DNA of 64,000 bases. It comes from Hymenobacter busanensis. Lineage in GTDB: Bacteria; Bacteroidota; Bacteroidia; Cytophagales; Hymenobacteraceae. The DNA is taken from contig NZ_VTWU01000002.1 in assembly GCF_008727865.1 (NCBI RefSeq), positions 558,001 to 622,000 on the forward strand. Direction: 5' to 3'. Both the position numbers and the translations under genes were made by a program. Under the pieces are notes generated by a model. It worked only from the letters and a program-made list of their open reading frames with translations, did not search any database and had not been told where the DNA came from. This document shows positions 47,179 through 54,973 of the stretch, in pieces; position 1 is the first letter of the stretch, and each line of letters opens with the position of its first letter.

Positions 47179-47889
47179 GTGCAACAGCCCTCTGCTTCCG
47201 CATCTACTGTGTACAAAGTGTTGGTAGTCGACGACGACCCCGACATTGTGGAACTGCTGGAGTACAACCTGCGCAAGGAAGGCTACGAGGTGGCCACGGC
47301 CTCGGACGGCCGCAAGGCCCTGGAAGTAGCCCCGCAATTTGCCCCCGATATTGTGCTGCTCGACGTGATGATGCCGCACCTCGACGGCATTGCGGCCTGC
47401 CGCGAGCTGCGCGCCCAGCCGCGCTTCAAAGACACCTATATCCTGTTTCTGACGGCCCGCGCCGAGGAATTCTCGGAAGTAGCCGCCTTCGAAGCCGGCG
47501 CCGACGACTACCTGACCAAGCCCATCAAGCCCCGCGCCCTGATGAGCCGCCTCGCCGCCGTGGTGCGCCGCGACCTGGAGCCCGCCACGCCGCAATCCGA
47601 TGTCATCGACATCAACGGCCTGCGCATTGACCGCACGGGCTTTGCCGTGTACCAGGAAGGCCGCAAAATCTCCCTCCCGAAGAAGGAATTTGAGTTGCTG
47701 GCGTTTCTAGCCGCCTCGCCCCACAAGGTATTCGGCCGCGACGAGCTGCTGCAGAACATCTGGGGCAACGACGTGTTTGTGCTGGCCCGCACCGTGGATG
47801 TGCACGTGCGCAAAGTGCGCGAGAAAGTAGGCGACCATCATATCCAGACCATCAAGGGCGTCGGCTACAAGTTCAACGCCGATAACTGA
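47179..47889 (+). CDS. Two-component response regulator, OmpR/PhoB family
   Basis: 236 aa; start GTG at 47179. Receiver domain (about 12-130) with acidic pair VVDDDPD, phospho-acceptor Asp in IVLLDVMMP, and Lys in YLTKPIKP. Winged-helix DNA-binding domain (about 140-235) with KKEFELLAFLAASPHKVF, ARTVDVHVRKVREKVG and the closing IKGVGYKF. It is followed by a sensor kinase gene, separated by a palindromic heptamer element. A PhoB-like role in phosphate or envelope response is inferred only from family. Confidence 0.95.
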   Translation: MQQPSASASTVYKVLVVDDDPDIVELLEYNLRKEGYEVATASDGRKALEVAPQFAPDIVLLDVMMPHLDGIAACRELRAQPRFKDTYILFLTARAEEFSEVAAFEAGADDYLTKPIKPRALMSRLAAVVRRDLEPATPQSDVIDINGLRIDRTGFAVYQEGRKISLPKKEFELLAFLAASPHKVFGRDELLQNIWGNDVFVLARTVDVHVRKVREKVGDHHIQTIKGVGYKFNADN

Positions 47890-47891
47890 TT

Positions 47892-47986
47892 CGGTTGCCA
47901 GTTCCCAGTTGCCGGTTGCCCGTTGTGAAGTGGTAGTAGCTTCCCGCAACTCCCAATTCGCAACCGGCAACTGGGAACTGCTAACT
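47892..47986. repeat. Palindromic element of tandem heptamers (element A)
   Basis: The left side is five tandem degenerate heptamers (CGGTTGC, CAGTTCC, CAGTTGC, CGGTTGC, CCGTTGT; 47892-47926). The right side is six heptamers of complementary type (CGCAACT, CCCAATT, CGCAACC, GGCAACT, GGGAACT, GCTAACT; 47945-47986). Positions 47899-47919 and 47960-47980 are perfect 21-bp inverted copies. The element sits between the response-regulator and sensor-kinase genes, so in the transcript it would form a long stable hairpin. Confidence 0.85.
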
Positions 47987-48117
47987 GACGATTTGCGACT
48001 TTTGAGGTGAAAATCAACCGTCATGCTACGGCGCCGGCCCGCGGGGTTGCGCGGCTTTCGGCGCGTCAGCACGCGCAGGAAGAGGTATTTTCAGCTCATG
48101 AATCGTCGTTGCCCTTC

Positions 48118-49182
48118 GTGTTCCGCCTGAATCTTTCGTCCCGCAGCATTGCCATCCTCATTGCACTGCTGGTGGGCGGCGTGCTCACGTTTTATGGGCA
48201 CCTAGCGCCCAAACTACCATTTCAGCAGGCGGTGCTGGCGGGCGGCATTACTGTTGCGGCCTGCTTCCTGCTGGTGTATCTATCGTTTGAGGCGTTGCTG
48301 TTTCGAGAAATCAACAACATCTACGCCGGGTTGGAGCACGTGAAGCGCAAGGAGTTTCGGCGGCTCTCGAACAAGTTCCTGTTTCGGCCCGACCCGCTCA
48401 AGCGCATGCGCGACGAAATCCTGGACATGGCCCAGCGCCGCCAGCAGGAAATCGACGAGCTGCGTCGCCTCCAGCACCTGCGCTCCGACTTCCTGGCCGA
48501 CGTGTCGCACGAGTTGAAAACGCCCATTTTCGCGGCCCAAGGCTTTGTGCATACGGTGCTCGACGCCGGCGAAGACGAGGTATTCATCCGCGAGAAATTC
48601 CTGCTGAAAGCCGCCTCTGCCCTCGATGCCCTCGACGCACTGGTACAGGACTTGGTCACGATTTCGCAGCTCGAAAAAGGCGTGGTGCGCATGCGCCGCC
48701 AAACGTTCGACCTGGCCTTGCTGGTGCGGGAAATCTTCGAGCAGTTGGAGCTGAAAGCCACCAAGCGTCAGATGACCCTTGAGCTGCTGCCTGCCGACTT
48801 GCCCCTGGAAGGCGTGCGTGTGCTGGCCGACCGCAACCGCATCCGGCAGGTGCTCATCAACCTCATCGACAACGCCCTGAAGTACGGCCGCGAGCAGGGC
48901 CACGTAACCGTAACGCTGCACGAGATGAGCAAGAGCGTGCGCATTGCGGTGTACGACGACGGCGAGGGCATTCCGGAAGAGCACCAGCGCCGGATTTTCG
49001 AGCGGTTCTACCGCATCGACAAAAGCCGCTCGCGCGAGTCGGGCGGTTCGGGCTTGGGCCTTGCCATTAGCAAGCACATTGTGGAGGCGCACAAATCCAC
49101 CATCCGGGTGCGCAGCGCCGTCGGCAAGGGCACCACGCTGGAATTTAAGCTGGCCAAACCCAAAGCGCCGGTGCGCGACTGA
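48118..49182 (+). CDS. Sensor histidine kinase, PhoR-like
   Basis: 354 aa from the GTG at 48118 (VFRLNLSSRSIAILIALLVGG); a GTG at 48007 would add 37 basic, poorly conserved residues and cannot be excluded. Two membrane segments (about 8-28 and 42-62) are followed by a linker. A HisKA domain has the phospho-His in FLADVSHELKTPIFA, and a HATPase domain has the N-box QVLINLIDNALKYG, then DDGEGIPEEH and SGGSGLGLAISKHI. It pairs with the response regulator just upstream. A bidirectional terminator follows. Confidence 0.93.
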   Translation: MFRLNLSSRSIAILIALLVGGVLTFYGHLAPKLPFQQAVLAGGITVAACFLLVYLSFEALLFREINNIYAGLEHVKRKEFRRLSNKFLFRPDPLKRMRDEILDMAQRRQQEIDELRRLQHLRSDFLADVSHELKTPIFAAQGFVHTVLDAGEDEVFIREKFLLKAASALDALDALVQDLVTISQLEKGVVRMRRQTFDLALLVREIFEQLELKATKRQMTLELLPADLPLEGVRVLADRNRIRQVLINLIDNALKYGREQGHVTVTLHEMSKSVRIAVYDDGEGIPEEHQRRIFERFYRIDKSRSRESGGSGLGLAISKHIVEAHKSTIRVRSAVGKGTTLEFKLAKPKAPVRD

Positions 49183-49198
49183 TACCTGCTGAGCACAG

Positions 49199-49232
49199 AA
49201 AAGGCCGTTCCCGAAACAGGAACGGCCTTTTC
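49199..49232. terminator. Bidirectional terminator between kinase and 61-aa genes
   Basis: A 13-bp perfect stem (AAAAGGCCGTTCC, 49199-49211, with 49219-49231) with A- and T-runs at opposite ends. It serves the plus-strand kinase gene and the convergent minus-strand gene. Confidence 0.85.
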
Positions 49233-49254
49233 ATTGGGTGAGTGGCGCAGCTTG

Positions 49255-49440
49255 CTATTTACTTGACTTGCGGCCCGAGCCGCCGGGATTTTTCCCGCCG
49301 CCATCATGCTTATTCACGGTGGCCCAGGCGCGGCTTTCGGCTTCTTTTTCCGATACGCCACGCTTTTCGTAGCCTTCTTCGATGTGCTCGGCTTGGCGCT
49401 TTTGCTTGTCGGTGTACTTGGATTTATCTCCTTGTGGCAT
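49255..49440 (-). CDS. Small conserved protein (61 aa), 'plasmid stabilization protein'-type
   Basis: Begins MPQGDKSKYTDKQKRQAEHIE at the ATG at 49440. The highly charged, helical sequence EEGYEKRGVSEKEAESRAWATVNK followed by a Gly/Lys-rich tail belongs to a widespread small-protein family often labelled plasmid stabilization protein, a label I regard as unproven. Nothing around it is plasmid-like. No signal peptide. Confidence 0.78.
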   Translation of the reverse strand: MPQGDKSKYTDKQKRQAEHIEEGYEKRGVSEKEAESRAWATVNKHDGGGKNPGGSGRKSSK

Positions 49441-49574
49441 GACTACAAAACGGTTAGGTTGTGGAAATGCGCAGCAACGCGTTTGTGTACGCAATTCCTC
49501 CGCGCGGGTTGAAGCTGACCAGACCCGGGAGTTACCCCAGCTTGGTATCTTCGTCCCAGTATTTTCCCTTCGCC

Positions 49575-49826
49575 ATGCGCCACGTAGCCGATATTCCGCA
49601 CCCCGACCTCAAAATCACGCTCTTGGCGTGGAACGGCAAGTATCTGCTTAAGCTCGAAAAGGGCATGCTGGAACAAACCTACAAAGTGAGCGAGCTGGAC
49701 CTAGTGGGCGGCGACGAGGAAATGCGCCAACTCCTCGACGACACCTTTGTGGCCGCCGCCGTGCGCCGCTTTGCCGACATGCGCGACGACCTGCAGGCCG
49801 CCCTGGAGCGCCACGATTTGCTCTAG
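49575..49826 (+). CDS. Hypothetical protein (83 aa)
   Basis: Start at the ATG at 49575 (MRHVADIPHPDLKITLLAWNG). It has a strand-rich first half (KITLLAWNGKYLLKLEKGMLEQTYKV) and an acidic helical second half (EEMRQLLDDTFVAAAVRRFADM). No signal peptide. The family is not recognised. A TATCTTCG box near 49544 could be its promoter. It is the first of four co-directional genes reaching to 52834. Confidence 0.7.
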   Translation: MRHVADIPHPDLKITLLAWNGKYLLKLEKGMLEQTYKVSELDLVGGDEEMRQLLDDTFVAAAVRRFADMRDDLQAALERHDLL

Positions 49827-49869
49827 CAGCCTACTTTTTTCTCACGATTTTTCCCAACGGTTCTTACCG

Positions 49870-50613
49870 ATGAAAACCCCACTCTCCCACCTGCTGGGCC
49901 TCTTGCTGACCATTGCGGCCCTTGCCCCTGGCAGCCGCGCCGTAGCCCAGGTATACGACGTGCGCACCAGCACCGTGAACGTAGACCGCCGCGAACGGCC
50001 GGCCTTGAAAGTACAGGTAGAAGGCAGCACGGCTCTGGTCCGCGAATACTTTCAGGACTTCATGAAAGAGAATTACAACATCCGCTTCAAGACCGGCGGC
50101 GTGTTGGGTATCGGCGGCAGCAAAGACGTGCTGACGGCCAAGCAAACGCCCGTTTCCAGCGTATCGGGCAAGCTCATCGATTTTTACGCCAACGTGGTAG
50201 CGCCTTCCGATACCACCACCGAGGTGCAAGTATTTGCGTCCTTCGACAACGGCACAACCTGGCTCGACCCTGAACGCACCCCTTCCGAATTTGCGGCCCT
50301 GCGCACCATCGTCAACAACTTCGCCCGCGAATCGCGCGCTTACTTCTACAAGGTACAGGTGCAGGAAGCCGAAAAGCTGCTGGTAGCGGCGCAGAACGAA
50401 AAAGTCCGGCTGGAGAAAGACATCAAAACCACCCAGGAAAACACCACCAGTAACCTGGCCAAAATTCAACAGCTTCAGCAGCAAAACGAGAAAAACGTAG
50501 CCCGCGTGAAGGACGACGAGGAAAAGCTGGTTCAGAGCACGGCCGCTTTGGAGCGCCAAAAAACCCTGCTGCAGCGCCGACGTGACCGTTTGGCCGGCCT
50601 CGACCGTAAATAG
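49870..50613 (+). CDS. Secreted protein with C-terminal coiled coil (247 aa)
   Basis: Start at the ATG at 49870. Signal peptide about residues 1-26 (cleavage near AVA-QV). A mixed alpha/beta central part includes FKTGGVLGIGGSKDVLTAK and VQVFASFDNGTTWLDPER. The last ~80 residues form a heptad coiled coil (AEKLLVAAQNEKVRLEKDI, IQQLQQQNEKNVARVK). No family was recognised; it should be periplasmic or surface-attached. The next gene starts 32 bases downstream. Confidence 0.75.
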   Translation: MKTPLSHLLGLLLTIAALAPGSRAVAQVYDVRTSTVNVDRRERPALKVQVEGSTALVREYFQDFMKENYNIRFKTGGVLGIGGSKDVLTAKQTPVSSVSGKLIDFYANVVAPSDTTTEVQVFASFDNGTTWLDPERTPSEFAALRTIVNNFARESRAYFYKVQVQEAEKLLVAAQNEKVRLEKDIKTTQENTTSNLAKIQQLQQQNEKNVARVKDDEEKLVQSTAALERQKTLLQRRRDRLAGLDRK

Positions 50614-50645
50614 TCTGCGGCTCATCCCCGGCCCCACCATCACCC

Positions 50646-51773
50646 ATGGACAACACCAATCCGTCGCCCCTCGACACGCTGCGCCAACTCAAAGAATGGC
50701 TTGATGCCGGCACCATCACGCCGCAAGAATTTGAAACGCTCAAACGCAAGCTACTTTTCGACGAGAAAACGCCTGCTTCCGCCCCAACCGTTAGCACGCC
50801 ACCGCCTGCGCCTACTCCCCCGCCCGCACCCCCACGCGCCGAGCCGCACGTGATTCCCCCTCCTGTCGACGACCCGCTGCTGCCGCCGGTGCTGGCAGAC
50901 GAGCCGGGCCAGCCGCAGCTGGAACCCGTGATTATGGATCCGGTGCACTACACGCCCACCGAGTCGGCCACGCCCAATGCTGTTTTTTCCACTGAAGACG
51001 CCTACGAGCCCGAGCCCCAGCGCAAACAACCGCTGGCTACCGTGCTCATTGTGGGCGGCATTGTGTTGCTGCTGGCCCTCACGGCCTACCTAATGCTGGG
51101 CAACCGCGAGTCGGAGCGGCTGGCCAGCACCACCCTCACCGCCGCCGATTCGGCTGCCGTAGCTGTGGAAGAAGGCCCCCAGGCCGAGCAGCTGGAACTG
51201 CCGCCCGTAGCGGCTCCCGAAACCGTGCGCCTGCAACCCGCCATTCCCATTGCTACCGATTCGGCTGCCGCAACAACTCCCGCTGTTGCCCCCGGCACTG
51301 CGGAGGCGTCGGCCGAAAACAGTGCTGCCGGAGAAGCCGCGGTGAAAGTCCGTGTGCAGCGCGCTCTCTCGGCTTTGTATGCCGACATGGAAGCTGCGCC
51401 GTTTAACGCAGCGCAGCACTTTGCGCCCCAAGTAGAGCGGTTTTATACGTTGCAGAACACCACGCCGGCCGCCATCGAAGAGGAATTGAACCGCTCGCAC
51501 TTCCCAGAGTTTCTCGAAAGCCAGATCAGCTACGACCCCGGCACGCTCCAAATCAGCCCCGTGGCTGAAGACGGTACCGTGATGGTGCAATACCAAGAGC
51601 GCGGCAAGAGCCTGCGCAAGTCGCGCAACCAGTACCAGCAGACTGTGGCGCAAGTGCGGGCGCGGCTCGATAAAAACGGCAAGCTCACGTATTTCCGGCA
51701 GGAGCGCCTACTAGAAAACACGTTTACCGACGCAGCCCAACCAGCACCGGCTACCGTGCCGCCCGCCCAATAA
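50646..51773 (+). CDS. SHOCT-domain membrane protein (375 aa)
   Basis: Residues 6-38 form a SHOCT domain (DTLRQLKEWLDAGTITPQEF, then ETLKRKLLF). A long Pro-rich linker follows (about 42-75), then one membrane segment (about 133-152; ATVLIVGGIVLLLALTAYLM). An Ala/Thr-rich spacer (about 155-230) and a C-terminal globular domain (about 235-360) with YTLQNTTPAAIEEELNRSHF complete it. Topology suggests a cytosolic SHOCT domain and an exported C-terminal domain. SHOCT is a short oligomerisation or targeting motif. The role is unknown; the neighbours are also envelope proteins. Confidence 0.78.
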   Translation: MDNTNPSPLDTLRQLKEWLDAGTITPQEFETLKRKLLFDEKTPASAPTVSTPPPAPTPPPAPPRAEPHVIPPPVDDPLLPPVLADEPGQPQLEPVIMDPVHYTPTESATPNAVFSTEDAYEPEPQRKQPLATVLIVGGIVLLLALTAYLMLGNRESERLASTTLTAADSAAVAVEEGPQAEQLELPPVAAPETVRLQPAIPIATDSAAATTPAVAPGTAEASAENSAAGEAAVKVRVQRALSALYADMEAAPFNAAQHFAPQVERFYTLQNTTPAAIEEELNRSHFPEFLESQISYDPGTLQISPVAEDGTVMVQYQERGKSLRKSRNQYQQTVAQVRARLDKNGKLTYFRQERLLENTFTDAAQPAPATVPPAQ

Positions 51774-51781
51774 CTCCATCC

Positions 51782-52834
51782 ATGCCCTTTCTGCAGCTGT
51801 TTTTCCGCTTGCGGTATAGCCTCGTGGTAGCTTGCCTGCTGCTGAGCGGGTGCATCAACCTGATCAAGCCCCACCACGAGTTTGCCGACGAGGACGACAT
51901 TCCCGCCTCCGCCCTCGACTACAGCCAGCCCGACAGTTGGGCCGCCCTGCCCACCCGCGCCGATGCCGCCGACCAAGTGCCCGAAGGCAGTACGCTACAG
52001 GACCGCCAGGCCCAAGCCGCGGCCGACGTGTTCTTCGTGCACCCCACCACGCTGTTTCGGCGCGAGTGGAACGCCGACCCGCGAAAAGACCGCCTCAACA
52101 GCTTCACCGACCGCGCTTCCATCCGAAAGCAGGCCTCGGTGTTCAACGCGGCCGCCCGCATCTACGCACCGCGCTACCGGCAGGCCACACTCATGTCGTT
52201 TTTCGACAGCACCGCCAACGGCCAGCAGGCCCTGGAACTGGCGTATCAGGACGTGCGCTCGGCGTTCCAGTACTACCTGAAACACTACAACCAGAAACGC
52301 CCCATCATCGTGGCGGGCCACAGCCAGGGTACCCAGCACGCCAAACGCCTGCTGCGCGAGTTCTTCGACCGTGACCCGGCCCTGCGCCGCCGCTTGGTCG
52401 CGGCTTACCTTATCGGCTTCAATGTGCCCGCCACCAGCTTTCAGGCCCTGAAGCCCTGCGCCGATTCGCTGCAAACCGGCTGCTACGTAACGTGGAATGC
52501 TGCCGAATGGGGCCACGGTTTTGCGCCCTGGCAGCATTCCGTGGTCGTCAATCCGCTTACCTGGACGATGGATACCACCACGGCCCCCGCAACGCTAAAC
52601 CGCGGTAGCGTACCCAACGACTTCGAGAGCATCGAGCCGCAGAAAGCCGACGCCAAGATTCACAACGGCGTGCTATGGGTGCACCCGCCCGAAGGCAACG
52701 GTTACCCACGCTTTCTGCTGCCCGGCCAACCGGCCTTGCACCACTCCTTCCACATCGTCGACTACGGCTTGTTCTACATGAACCTGCGCCGCAACGCCCT
52801 GGCGCGGGTGCAAGCGTGGCAGCGACGTAACTAG
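51782..52834 (+). CDS. DUF3089 alpha/beta-hydrolase lipoprotein
   Basis: 350 aa, starting eight bases after the SHOCT gene. Lipoprotein signal with lipobox LLLSGC (Cys22). DUF3089 features: ADVFFVHPTTLFRREWNADP, then ARIYAPRYRQATLMSFF, a hydrolase nucleophile elbow AGHSQGTQHAKRL, and a late HIVDYGLFYMNLR providing the likely catalytic His region. These are probable esterases/lipases anchored in the envelope. The end overlaps the stop of the convergent 103-aa gene by four bases. Confidence 0.87.
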   Translation: MPFLQLFFRLRYSLVVACLLLSGCINLIKPHHEFADEDDIPASALDYSQPDSWAALPTRADAADQVPEGSTLQDRQAQAAADVFFVHPTTLFRREWNADPRKDRLNSFTDRASIRKQASVFNAAARIYAPRYRQATLMSFFDSTANGQQALELAYQDVRSAFQYYLKHYNQKRPIIVAGHSQGTQHAKRLLREFFDRDPALRRRLVAAYLIGFNVPATSFQALKPCADSLQTGCYVTWNAAEWGHGFAPWQHSVVVNPLTWTMDTTTAPATLNRGSVPNDFESIEPQKADAKIHNGVLWVHPPEGNGYPRFLLPGQPALHHSFHIVDYGLFYMNLRRNALARVQAWQRRN

Positions 52835-53142
52835 CCTTGCTGAGACCCAGCTAGCTGGTCGTCAAAAACCTGACGCAGATGGTTTATTGCAATGTTTGGA
52901 TAGTTGCTATTGAATGCATCTACGCTTTGCCAGAAGTGCTGCTCATTGAATCCGGCGAAATCATTTGTTGCGGCCAAGGCTAAGTTGTGCAATAGGTAAG
53001 CCACCGCACCCGTGTAATTGCTGTAACTCTTCAGCTGTTCGACAGTCCAAACATCTGCATGGTTATCCGTCGGAGTAGTACGAATGCTCAATAGAAAATC
53101 GTAGAGCAAGTAACGATAAGCGCTTTTCTCGTGGTCAGTCAT
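52831..53142 (-). CDS. Hypothetical protein (103 aa), A+T-rich
   Basis: Start at the ATG at 53142 (MTDHEKSAYRYLLYDFLLSIR). An all-helical, acidic protein with no signal peptide; blocks YTGAVAYLLHNLALAATNDF and INHLRQVFDDQL. I do not recognise it. Base composition is much more A+T-rich than its neighbours. It could be an immunity- or regulator-like small protein, but nothing in the sequence proves that. It lies downstream of the tsf terminator on the same strand. Confidence 0.6.
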   Translation of the reverse strand: MTDHEKSAYRYLLYDFLLSIRTTPTDNHADVWTVEQLKSYSNYTGAVAYLLHNLALAATNDFAGFNEQHFWQSVDAFNSNYPNIAINHLRQVFDDQLAGSQQG

Positions 53143-53156
53143 ATGCCAAATAACAA

Positions 53157-53188
53157 AAAAGCCCGCTGGCGCAATGCCAGCGGGCTTT
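53157..53188 (-). terminator. Terminator of the rplM-rpsI-rpsB-tsf operon
   Basis: A 13-bp perfect stem (53158-53170 with 53176-53188), 5-base loop, and on the minus strand a T-run (complement of the A-run at 53154-53160). It lies 21 bases past the tsf stop. Confidence 0.88.
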
Positions 53189-53208
53189 CGAATTGTGGTT
53201 AATGATGC

Positions 53209-54048
53209 TTAAGCACCGATAGCCACACGCTTGAAGTCCGATACCGTCATGCCTTTCGACGTTTTGTCGAGCAGCTGGGCGATGGTCAGCGAACCGTCTT
53301 TCACGAATTCTTGGTTCAGCAGGGTATTCTCCTTGTAGAACTTGTTGAGCTTGCCTTGGGCAATTTTCTCCAGCATGGCCTCGGGCTTGCCTTCGGCACG
53401 CGCCTGCTCTTTGCCGATTTCGATTTCGCGCTCTACCGTAGCCGAATCCACACCGTCTTTGTCAACGGCTACGGGACGCATGGCTACGATTTGCATGGCT
53501 ACGTCGCGGCCTACGGCAGCCACGTCGGCGTTGCCTACGTTCTTCAGGCCCACCAGTACGCCTTTCTTGTTGTCGGAGTGGATGTACGAGGCTACTTTCT
53601 CAGCGGTCATGTTCTCGTAAGCCACCACATCCAGCTTCTCGCCGATTTTGCCCATCAGGTCGGTGATGTGGTCTTGCAGCGAGCGGCCATCGGCCTGGGC
53701 CGAAGCCAGCAGGTCTTCCTTGGTGCCGGCGTTGGTTTTCACGGCGGCGTCCAGGATTTGCTGAGCCAGGGCTTTGAAGTCGGCTACTTTCGAAACCGGC
53801 TCGGTTTCGCAAGCCAAGGCAATCAGCTTGCCATTGGTGCCGTCTTCGCTCACGCTAGCCAGTACCAAACCTTCCGACGTGGCGTTGTCCGAACGCTTGT
53901 CGGCAATTTTCTGGCCCTGCTTGCGCAGAATGTCGCGAGCGGCTTCGAAGTCGCCATCGGCTTCTACCAGCGCTTTTTTGCAATCCATCATGCCCGCACC
54001 GGTCATGGTGCGCAGCTTGTTCACGTCTGCGGCGGTAATTGCTGCCAT
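53209..54048 (-). CDS. tsf: Elongation factor Ts
   Basis: 279 aa nucleotide-exchange factor that recycles EF-Tu from GDP to GTP. The N-terminal UBA-like domain and the EF-Ts signature LRTMTGAGMMDCKKALVEADGD are at the start, followed by the two core subdomains (ALACETEPVSKVADFKALAQ; VGRDVAMQIVAMRP). It is the last gene of the ribosomal operon. The 157-bp gap from rpsB is unusually long for this pair because it contains a palindromic heptamer element. Confidence 0.97.
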   Translation of the reverse strand: MAAITAADVNKLRTMTGAGMMDCKKALVEADGDFEAARDILRKQGQKIADKRSDNATSEGLVLASVSEDGTNGKLIALACETEPVSKVADFKALAQQILDAAVKTNAGTKEDLLASAQADGRSLQDHITDLMGKIGEKLDVVAYENMTAEKVASYIHSDNKKGVLVGLKNVGNADVAAVGRDVAMQIVAMRPVAVDKDGVDSATVEREIEIGKEQARAEGKPEAMLEKIAQGKLNKFYKENTLLNQEFVKDGSLTIAQLLDKTSKGMTVSDFKRVAIGA

Positions 54049-54060
54049 TGTGTAGATCTG

Positions 54061-54197
54061 AGAGTTGAGAACTTAGATGTTAGAATGATGCGGAAAGCCC
54101 ACCGGGCCGGTAAAAGCAAGAAGAAGTTAGAAGCCGAGGCTGAAAAGAAGTACACTCTCCAGGTCTCTAACTTCTAACTTCTAAAATCTCACTTCTA
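54061..54197. repeat. Palindromic element of tandem heptamers inside rpsB-tsf (element B)
   Basis: Plus-strand left side: AGAGTTG, AGAACTT, AGATGTT, AGAATGA (54061-54088). Inner copies: AGAAGTT, AGAAGCC (54122-54135). Right side, complementary type: TCTAACT, TCTAACT, TCTAAAA, TCTCACT, TCTAC (54166-54198). The outer arms match over about 19 bases with three mismatches when inverted. The plan is the same as at 47892-47986, but the heptamer differs. The element is transcribed as part of the ribosomal operon and could fold into a long hairpin between rpsB and tsf. Confidence 0.8.
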
Positions 54198-54205
54198 CAA
54201 AAGAC

Positions 54206-54973
54206 CTATTCGTCGGCGTTCTGCTTTTCCTGGATGGCTTCTTCGTCAGCCTGCTTGCGGTCAGCGTCCTCTTTGTCCACCTTGCGCTCCGACAGACCTT
54301 CTTCGATGGCCTTGCTGATAGCACCCACGATCAGGGCTACCGACTTCGAGGCGTCGTCGTTGGCCGGAATGGCGAAGTCAACGAGTTCGGGGTTCGAGTT
54401 CGTGTCGCAGATGGCAAACACCGGGATACCTAGCTTGTGGGCTTCTTTCACGGCGATGTGCTCACGCTTCACGTCGACCACGAACAGAGCAGCGGGCAGG
54501 CGGCTCAGGTCGGCAATGCCACCCAGTACGCGCTCCAGCTTCTCCCGCTCACGCGACAGCATCAGACGCTCACGCTTGGCAATAGCAGCGTAGGCGGTGT
54601 TTTCCTTCACCATCTTGTCGATGGTGCTCATTTTCTTCAGCGACTTGCGCACGGTGGCGAAGTTGGTGAGCATGCCGCCCAGCCAACGGTCGGTCACGTA
54701 CGGCATTTTGAGGCGCTTGGCCTCTTCCGTTACGATTTCCTGCGCCTGCTTCTTGGTGGCCACAAACATGATCTTGCGACCCGACTTGGCAATGTTGCGG
54801 ATGGCCGACGAGGCCTGGTCCAGCGACACCAAGGTTTTGTTCAGGTCGATGATGTGGATGCCGTTCTTCTCCATGAAGATGTACGGCGCCATTTTCGGGT
54901 CCCACTTGCGGGTAAGGTGACCAAAGTGGGCACCGGCATCCAGCAAGTCTTTATAGGTGATGGACTGAGCCAT
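54206..54973 (-). CDS. rpsB: 30S ribosomal protein S2
   Basis: 255 aa. Signature blocks: [21 protein letters not shown] at the N-terminus, then [12 protein letters not shown] and [19 protein letters not shown]. The late [20 protein letters not shown] and [16 protein letters not shown] regions are also conserved. An acidic-basic C-terminal tail is present. It sits 18 bases after rpsI and before tsf, the usual order. Confidence 0.98.

Follow-up and report, generated by a model that had tools for sequence, protein, structure and literature searches.

In 23S rRNA, intervening sequences (IVS) form stem-loops whose borders are complementary, and inside lies an ORF for S23p, the intervening-sequence protein (IVP). 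According to Warrier et al. 2016 (PMC4990558), their distribution is sporadic, they are termed selfish or parasitic, and S23p, crystallized as a homopentamer, is without known function. The spacer between rpsB and tsf studied here is likewise a stem-loop, and an S23p/IVP ORF is found only in relatives of its element. IVS lie in rRNA genes, whereas this element and its kind lie between protein genes; they differ from IVS as described there also in their arms of tandem 7- or 8-mers, and in that, in the genomes examined, copies without the ORF are more numerous than coding ones.

Heptamer repeats are known from cyanobacteria, Beggiatoaceae, Xanthomonas and Bacteroidetes, and no origin for them is agreed on (PMC4679880, PMC4692102). 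TAACTGA repeats occur in Beggiatoaceae, cyanobacteria and five Bacteroidetes (MacGregor 2015, PMC4679880). Like the elements described below, they are tandem heptamers just 5' of start codons, one set being reversed right after a stop codon, and neighbouring heptamer types share gaps; they were, however, presented as direct repeats of a single unit. The GGGAATC / GGGGA(C/T)T repeats of Xanthomonas and Nostoc (Rehm et al. 2015, PMC4692102) also resemble our elements: they lie between aligned genes, with the G-rich strand past stop codons and the antisense ahead of start codons, and inverted pairs number 70 in one Xanthomonas and 75 in another, with runs of four units the most frequent. They were interpreted as quadruplex sequences without a tie to mobile elements, and IVP terms were not found in the available text of either paper. 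The rpsB-tsf element has the intergenic tandem heptamers of the cyanobacterial STRR / TAACTGA-type repeats, with an AGAAGTT-type unit that differs from the published TAACTGA and GGGAATC.

The IVP family, PF05635, is described as resembling Avd of diversity-generating retroelements, which is needed for retrohoming (PMC10053308); among proteins having a known partner, Avd is the closest to IVP. The NCBIfam Avd model matched IVP protein weakly, below the model's cut-off. Unlike diversity-generating retroelements, most IVP-bearing genomes of the genus lack a PF00078 reverse transcriptase. A resident reverse transcriptase as the driver was further weakened by the absence of PF00078 from 21 of 40 family genomes, including the one studied here; 18 of these 21 carry IVP genes.

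REP elements, which go with RAYT transposases, and MITEs are likewise short, palindromic and intergenic; both are numerous, and their coding partner is less frequent. IVP elements share these traits, and the rpsB-tsf element has terminal inverted repeats, as MITEs do; the protein differs from that of REP/RAYT systems, and we know of no tandem-heptamer arms in either REP/RAYT or MITE systems. New here is the link of the palindromes to IVP genes, heptamer repeats and the IVP family each being already known. We found no statement of that link among the best matches listed from the open-access PMC literature or in passages of PMC4853749, PMC5524665, PMC4692102, PMC3542288, PMC10053308 and PMC4679880, and do not claim its absence from print. 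IVP genes inside heptamer palindromes join two puzzles, the origin of the heptamer repeats and the function of IVP.

The rpsB-tsf spacer and other palindromes of the genome

The window, i.e., the whole 64-kb stretch of DNA analysed, comes from genome G000 (G and L numbers denote genomes and loci). Two palindromes in it are considered here, with the following parts:

54206-54973, minus strand: rpsB, upstream gene (TIGR01011)
53209-54048, minus strand: tsf, downstream gene (TIGR00116)
54051-54084, no strand assigned: palindrome arm of degenerate AGA-type tandem heptamers (stem and lag-7 tests, 0/1000 shuffles)
54085-54165, no strand assigned: loop of 81 nt with extra heptamers at about 54121-54134 and without an IVP gene (sequence and RNA fold)
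54097-54107, minus strand: small putative terminator-like hairpin GCCCGGTGGGC, then TTT in the tsf direction (position by sequence)
54166-54199, no strand assigned: opposite inverted arm with two consecutive exact TTCTAAC units (stem test; period-7 tandem repeat at 54166-54197)
47891-47928, no strand assigned: arm 1 of the companion element, unit GTTGCCA (stem test)
47951-47988, no strand assigned: arm 2 of the companion element (stem test)

The stop-to-start gap between rpsB and tsf is 157 nt in G000. Its arms are complementary at 28 of 34 positions (ungapped stem score 22), and its lag-7 score was 13.0, the remaining lags from 4 to 12 giving at most 5.6; each score was reached in 0/1000 dinucleotide shuffles. 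Since the arms end a few bases from both genes, the palindrome covers nearly the entire gap. Each arm is a run of degenerate AGAAGTT-like heptamers, of which AGA is by eye the most constant portion. The heptamer palindrome that an earlier note had described from the sequence was confirmed, together with its inverted arms; the AGAAGTT and TCTAACT that it gave for the two sides are, however, the same unit on opposite strands, hence a single degenerate heptamer in inverted arrangement. The companion element (47891-47988) is, as that note held, alike in plan with a different unit; its stem score was 24, and its stem and lag-7 scores were each reached in 0/1000 shuffles.

As RNA, the rpsB-tsf gap folded at -52.9 kcal/mol (z -4.2; 0/200 shuffles folded as well), and in the best fold the 5' arm paired mainly with the heptamers in the loop, not with the 3' arm. 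A search of Rfam with positions 47800-54300 gave three sub-threshold matches, none on either element. DNA similar to the tsf region was found in 35 plasmid records; among the 20 listed, the annotated ones were tsf. The element has the two inverted tandem-heptamer arms and the G-rich 5' arm of the IVP-bearing elements described below. It lacks a PF05635 gene of its own between the arms, present in relatives with its unit class (L391, L400), and was therefore classed as an ORF-less form. The whole-genome family search of G000 found no IVP gene near rpsB-tsf, giving only C4:160464, outside the window.

A hairpin similar to that at 54097-54107 is present in the rpsB-tsf gap of G003. Hairpins followed by T-runs lie after rpsB in many Cytophagales, of the form GGGAACATTC...GTTCCC or AGCCCGTAGCC...GCTATGGGCT (L098-L109, the rpsB-tsf gaps of G001, G002 and G004-G007; L021-L028), which gives the impression, judging by sequence, that a conserved terminator or attenuator stands between rpsB and tsf.

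Similar palindromes are dispersed in G000. The pattern AGTTNNN x3 gave 15 matches (reversed control, 1), and TTAGAAN x3, allowing 3 mismatches at most, gave 19 (control, 2). By our own grouping of match lists, the GTTGCCA class is found at ~25 places, TTAGAAG, the class of the rpsB-tsf element, at ~9 and GTTAGCT at ~5. The pattern GTTNNNN x4 with one mismatch was not enriched in total (45+54 vs 46+49 for the control) and served only as a list of places; 40 G000 places were read, at least one of which (L144) looks like a chance match. A fixed test for gaps of 60-300 nt (stem at least 11, best period 7-9) was passed by 8/229 gaps in a 464-kb sample, composed of the window and twenty 20-kb stretches on a grid, and by none in five shuffled passes; two of the eight belong to the window, the count outside being 6/198. 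The best period of gaps passing the test was 7 in five, 8 in three, 6 in one and 10 in one. In 17 passing codirectional G000 gaps the median distance is 3 nt from the stop codon to the beginning of the 5' arm and 13 nt from the end of the 3' arm to the called start; genes in the fetched DNA were predicted by a home-made program based on codon usage, which overlooked some starts (L116). The names atpF, atpH, ftsA, ftsZ, murC, rpsB and tsf come from profile matches; others (nusB etc.) are our own reading.

Pooling and two simple explanations failed. In a lag spectrum pooled over all gaps the period-7 signal was too diluted to appear, and when a pooled test scaled arm length with the period, periods 5 and 6 gave at least as many matches as period 7. 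Stop codons in all frames were rejected as the cause of the 7-nt period because GTTGCCA arrays hold none. A core common to all loops was also rejected: GTTC...GAAC was only mildly enriched (25 vs 12 and 23 vs 14 of 94), and the idea was retained for the octamer family only.

The same gaps in sister genomes

The flanks of 14 G000 elements were mapped in the seven other genomes of the genus, and 12 gaps were fetched (24 sites prepared); L129 and L138 were mapped and left unfetched, and A2 was fetched in 4/7 and A3 in 6/7 of the other genomes. Over 11 intergenic sites, i.e., omitting the intragenic B7, 43/73 sister-genome gaps at the same gene pairs passed the fixed test, often with a different unit. 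The atpF-atpH gap holds a heptamer palindrome in 8/8 genomes with four different units: GTTAGCT in G000 and G007, TTGAGTA in G003, G005 and G006, GTTGTCA in G001 and G002, and a TTAGGGC-like one in G004. Heptamers and octamers are mixed at ftsA-ftsZ, where 5/8 genomes pass, and at site L127, where 7/8 do. Sites L147 and L149 fail in all genomes including G000, and several sister-genome gaps contain unrelated palindromes. The rpsB-tsf gap measures ~148-278 nt in the seven sister genomes (tsf starts extrapolated via protein alignments); by eye, the AGA class is present in G000 and G003, GTTG-class arms lie downstream of the conserved hairpin in G001, G004 and G007, and G002, G005 and G006 carry a different palindromic repeat. 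Units change at fixed sites, and the inverted symmetry is retained.

These comparisons bear on several points of the earlier note. A heptamer that differs between genomes at the same site, which it had suggested looking for, was seen at, e.g., atpF-atpH and rpsB-tsf, and simple descent with no other heptamer variants, which it named as contrary evidence, is at odds with the four units at atpF-atpH. Its gap of 157 bases is exact, but the expansion of a normally tight operon that it read into this figure is contradicted by the sister gaps. The proposed mechanism that makes palindromes, instead of copies of one element, agrees with a plan kept while the unit changes (atpF-atpH, 8/8); copies nevertheless exist, namely the GTTGCCA and TTAGAAG classes above and an octamer family with 106 matches in G001.

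Site L146 is occupied only in G000, the other genomes having ~44 nt there (four fetched, three inferred from match lengths). The element replaced this 44-nt spacer and is not a clean insertion, and visual inspection of the L146 and murC sites revealed no target-site duplication. In murC, G000, G001 and G002 have a stretch longer by 30 nt with AACTGGC-like units, which five sister genomes lack; heptamer arrays within reading frames are found at L112:1040-1090 (murC), L119, L122 and L130. A further palindromic repeat, GTCATCCTGAGCGCAGCGAAGGACC..., lies inside the heptamer loops of L121, L128, L131, L132 and L134 (~850-1250), and it replaces the heptamer palindrome in the A3 gaps of G002 (L246), G003 (L249), G005 (L248) and G006 (L245).

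Among 61 passing elements of 97 gap sequences, pairing was 0.83 in register vs 0.68 one unit off, a contrast inflated by the choice of register for the best stem; some elements have perfect arms (31/31, 33/33, 29/29 and 32/32). Comparison of homologous copies, over overlapping genome pairs, gave 41 stem positions changed on both sides with complementarity kept, 58 two-sided changes not pairing in both copies and 265 one-sided changes; mirrored changes were most numerous at sites L147 and L118. G.U and A.C oppositions in stems numbered 73 vs 54, with no clear preference (binomial p 0.11). Because one-sided changes dominate and G.U is not clearly preferred, the arm symmetry looks, on this comparison, renewed at birth or by correction at the DNA level more than maintained as RNA. 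The 5' arm has more G than C in 57/61 passing ORF-less elements, the reverse being found in 1, and in 69/77 IVP elements.

IVP genes between inverted arms

Site L127 holds an ORF-less palindrome in G000; in G005 the gap is much longer, with an ORF between heptamer arms. The encoded protein scored 132.5 bits against PF05635 (23S rRNA intervening-sequence protein; cut-off 33.8), and it also matched TIGR02436 'four helix bundle protein' and the solved chain 2gsc, XCC0516 of Xanthomonas campestris (E 1.5e-24). ORF-less and IVP-bearing versions occupy the same gap of sister genomes, and the earlier reading, confined to the palindromes, was incomplete: in relatives, the arms enclose an IVP gene.

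PF05635 was found at 23 places in 7/8 genus genomes; the profile search gave no match in G004, although this genome has heptamer palindromes. Arms were scored as the best ungapped stem between the stretches before and after the gene, at a score of at least 12. In the genus, inverted arms flank 22/23 IVP loci vs 2/113 other short genes, and the best period is 7 or 8 in all 23. In the family, 29/29 new loci have arms vs 1/58 displaced controls, with period 7 in all, and in Bacteroidota 26/30 loci tested vs 3/60 controls (period 7 in 19, 8 in 7, 9 in 2, other in 2). The loci tested were mostly the best-scoring ones, and the 82 loci of these three sets reduce by homology to 37 sites, 32 of them with a positive member. 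On mostly cyanobacterial plasmids (10 of 27 plasmid records) arms flank 8/10 loci vs 2/20 controls, among them (TAGGGAG)n and (GGGAACA)n of Nostoc and (GGGTGTA)n of Calothrix; a Pseudanabaena locus, although bordered on either side by long heptamer arrays, scores low in this ungapped test, and a gemmatimonad locus fails it. The arms have a median length of 31 nt, i.e., 4-5 units (77 IVP loci), and in the genus flanks the IVP start and stop codons often lie within or beside them. The architecture, the placement from stop to start codon and the fact that, in Bacteroidota and on cyanobacterial plasmids alike, the arms go with IVP genes are all direct observations.

In a set of 395 Bacteroidota genomes, PF05635 matched in 298 and a strict AGTT-class palindrome in 89, the control pattern being equal or higher in several (G201: 0 vs 8). 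IVP was present in 81/89 genomes with such a palindrome vs 217/306 others (Fisher p 4e-5, hand count), which is weak support because the pattern detects one unit class and relatedness is uncorrected.

Some contexts recur. One gene pair is shared by 21/29 family loci (within L375-L400), with IVP arms of many different units; by our own reading its downstream gene is acetyl-CoA acetyltransferase-like. On three cyanobacterial plasmids (L365, L370, L373) the IVP gene lies between CRISPR genes, in the order cas6 - IVP - cas4 on two and cas10 - IVP - cmr3 on the third.

The units of ORF-less palindromes also surround IVP genes: the rpsB-tsf class at L391 and L400, GTTAGCT at L378, and GTTGTCA-like units at L314, L315, L319, L388, L393 and L398. 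The single IVP gene of G000 has AAATGGCT arms, a unit other than that of the rpsB-tsf element, and two ORF-less palindromes of the AAATGGCT type occur in the 464-kb sample (L156, L168). With a G001 element as query, the octamer family gave, besides the matches in G001, 92 in G002, 74 in G005 and 12 in G006 (both strands counted). Among the matches listed there are 26 distinct ORF-less places, 13 with the 5' inner core and 16 with the 3' core; in controls the cores were found 0 times in 400 kb of G000 and once each in 62 kb of the family's own flanks. The IVP locus L326 (G005) contains the octamer 3' core exactly and the 5' core one base short, so that one IVP element and one ORF-less family have inner sequence in common. 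At the same site, L327 (G002) is similar but has its 3' core within a full palindrome past the gene, and L317 and L329 have neither core. This gap holds an IVP gene in four genomes (L317 in G006, L326, L327, and L329 in G001) with at least two arm units, and the L317 copy has an internal stop.

Another gap holds an IVP gene in both G000 and G007 with different units (L316, L333). Arm similarity at shared sites is 0.66 at IVP identities of at least 90% and 0.035 in the fifties, a drop which indicates a drifting unit within a constant plan. At unrelated sites arm similarity is low, four pairs at 70-79% IVP identity (mean 0.47) being the exception.

A putative IVP hairpin element and its alternatives

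The rpsB-tsf spacer probably holds an IVP hairpin element in its ORF-less form. The complete element would consist of two inverted arms of tandem 7- or 8-mers flanking a gene for an IVP / four-helix-bundle protein (PF05635, TIGR02436), with a G-rich, C-poor 5' arm and a 3' arm of opposite composition. The IVP protein would recognise the tandem-unit hairpin and promote its copying, both in cis and for ORF-less copies, and insertions would survive mostly in intergenic gaps, where they are tolerated. Slippage between units and strand-switching between arms would homogenise the array, and in a homogenised array the unit could drift while period and symmetry persist. Both the mobility of the element and the enzyme responsible are what we infer from these patterns. 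Several observations count against this reading. No movement was observed, and neither exact ends nor target duplications were found; the one site occupied only in G000 (L146) is a replaced spacer, the single IVP gene of G000 has a different unit from the rpsB-tsf element, G004 has palindromes and no IVP match, and two of the four IVP loci at the L326 site lack the octamer core. The S23p pentamer and arms of 4-5 units together suggest one unit per IVP subunit.

Recurrence at the same gaps (43/73) could also mean a host function. The palindromes may be intercistronic mRNA hairpins under selection for translational coupling, mRNA stability or termination, with IVP as an RNA-binding regulator or chaperone of hairpins, its own included, and no part of a mobile element. 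Besides the recurrence, the arms close to stop and start codons (medians of 3 and 13 nt in the 17 codirectional gaps), the strong computed RNA fold and the 41 two-sided stem changes that stayed complementary agree with this explanation. We nevertheless regard it as unlikely: the 265 one-sided and 58 non-pairing two-sided changes far exceed the mirrored ones, G.U is not clearly preferred over A.C (73 vs 54, p 0.11), some arrays lie within reading frames (L112 in murC), and dispersed families with a shared core resemble copies of an element.

Less probable again is that the host's own mutational processes, by slippage together with strand-switching at hairpins, make the palindromes, with IVP genes as passengers preferring such hairpins. 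It would account for palindromes that far outnumber IVP genes per genome and for the other palindromic repeats inside heptamer loops (L121, L128, L131, L132, L134), but not readily for IVP genes nearly always inside arms in two phyla, the arms often containing the start or stop codon, nor for the non-repeat inner core that ORF-less copies have in common with an IVP element; symmetric slippage, moreover, would not be expected to give the uniform G-rich-first polarity. That the rpsB-tsf palindrome is a chance sequence, or a single element inherited by simple descent, is already contradicted and scarcely credible: G000 and G003 do have the element in common, but the shuffles (0/1000), the dispersed unit classes and the change of unit at one and the same gap among sister genomes speak against it.

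The IVP hairpin element may reach further than this spacer. The heptamer repeats of Bacteroidota and cyanobacteria, and probably TAACTGA and GGGAATC as well, could all be arms of mobile hairpins that form a single class, so far unrecognised. Its sole gene would be IVP, whose ring would read about one unit per subunit; its unit would drift fast and in concert in both arms, with the period of 7 or 8 and the symmetry kept; and the 23S rRNA intervening sequences would be the special case that landed in rRNA. We are evenly divided on this wider proposal. The link between IVP and the palindromes supplies an element class, a candidate recognition protein and ORF-less derivatives, and gaps between essential genes (atpF-atpH, ftsA-ftsZ, rpsB-tsf) are shaped by such elements in these bacteria.

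A palindrome with a longer unit, AATGTGCTGATGTG..., was observed in G000 at L153:1620-1739. Its likeness to the 9-mer type found in G002 at site L116 suggests that there may be further families, built on units neither 7 nor 8 nt long.
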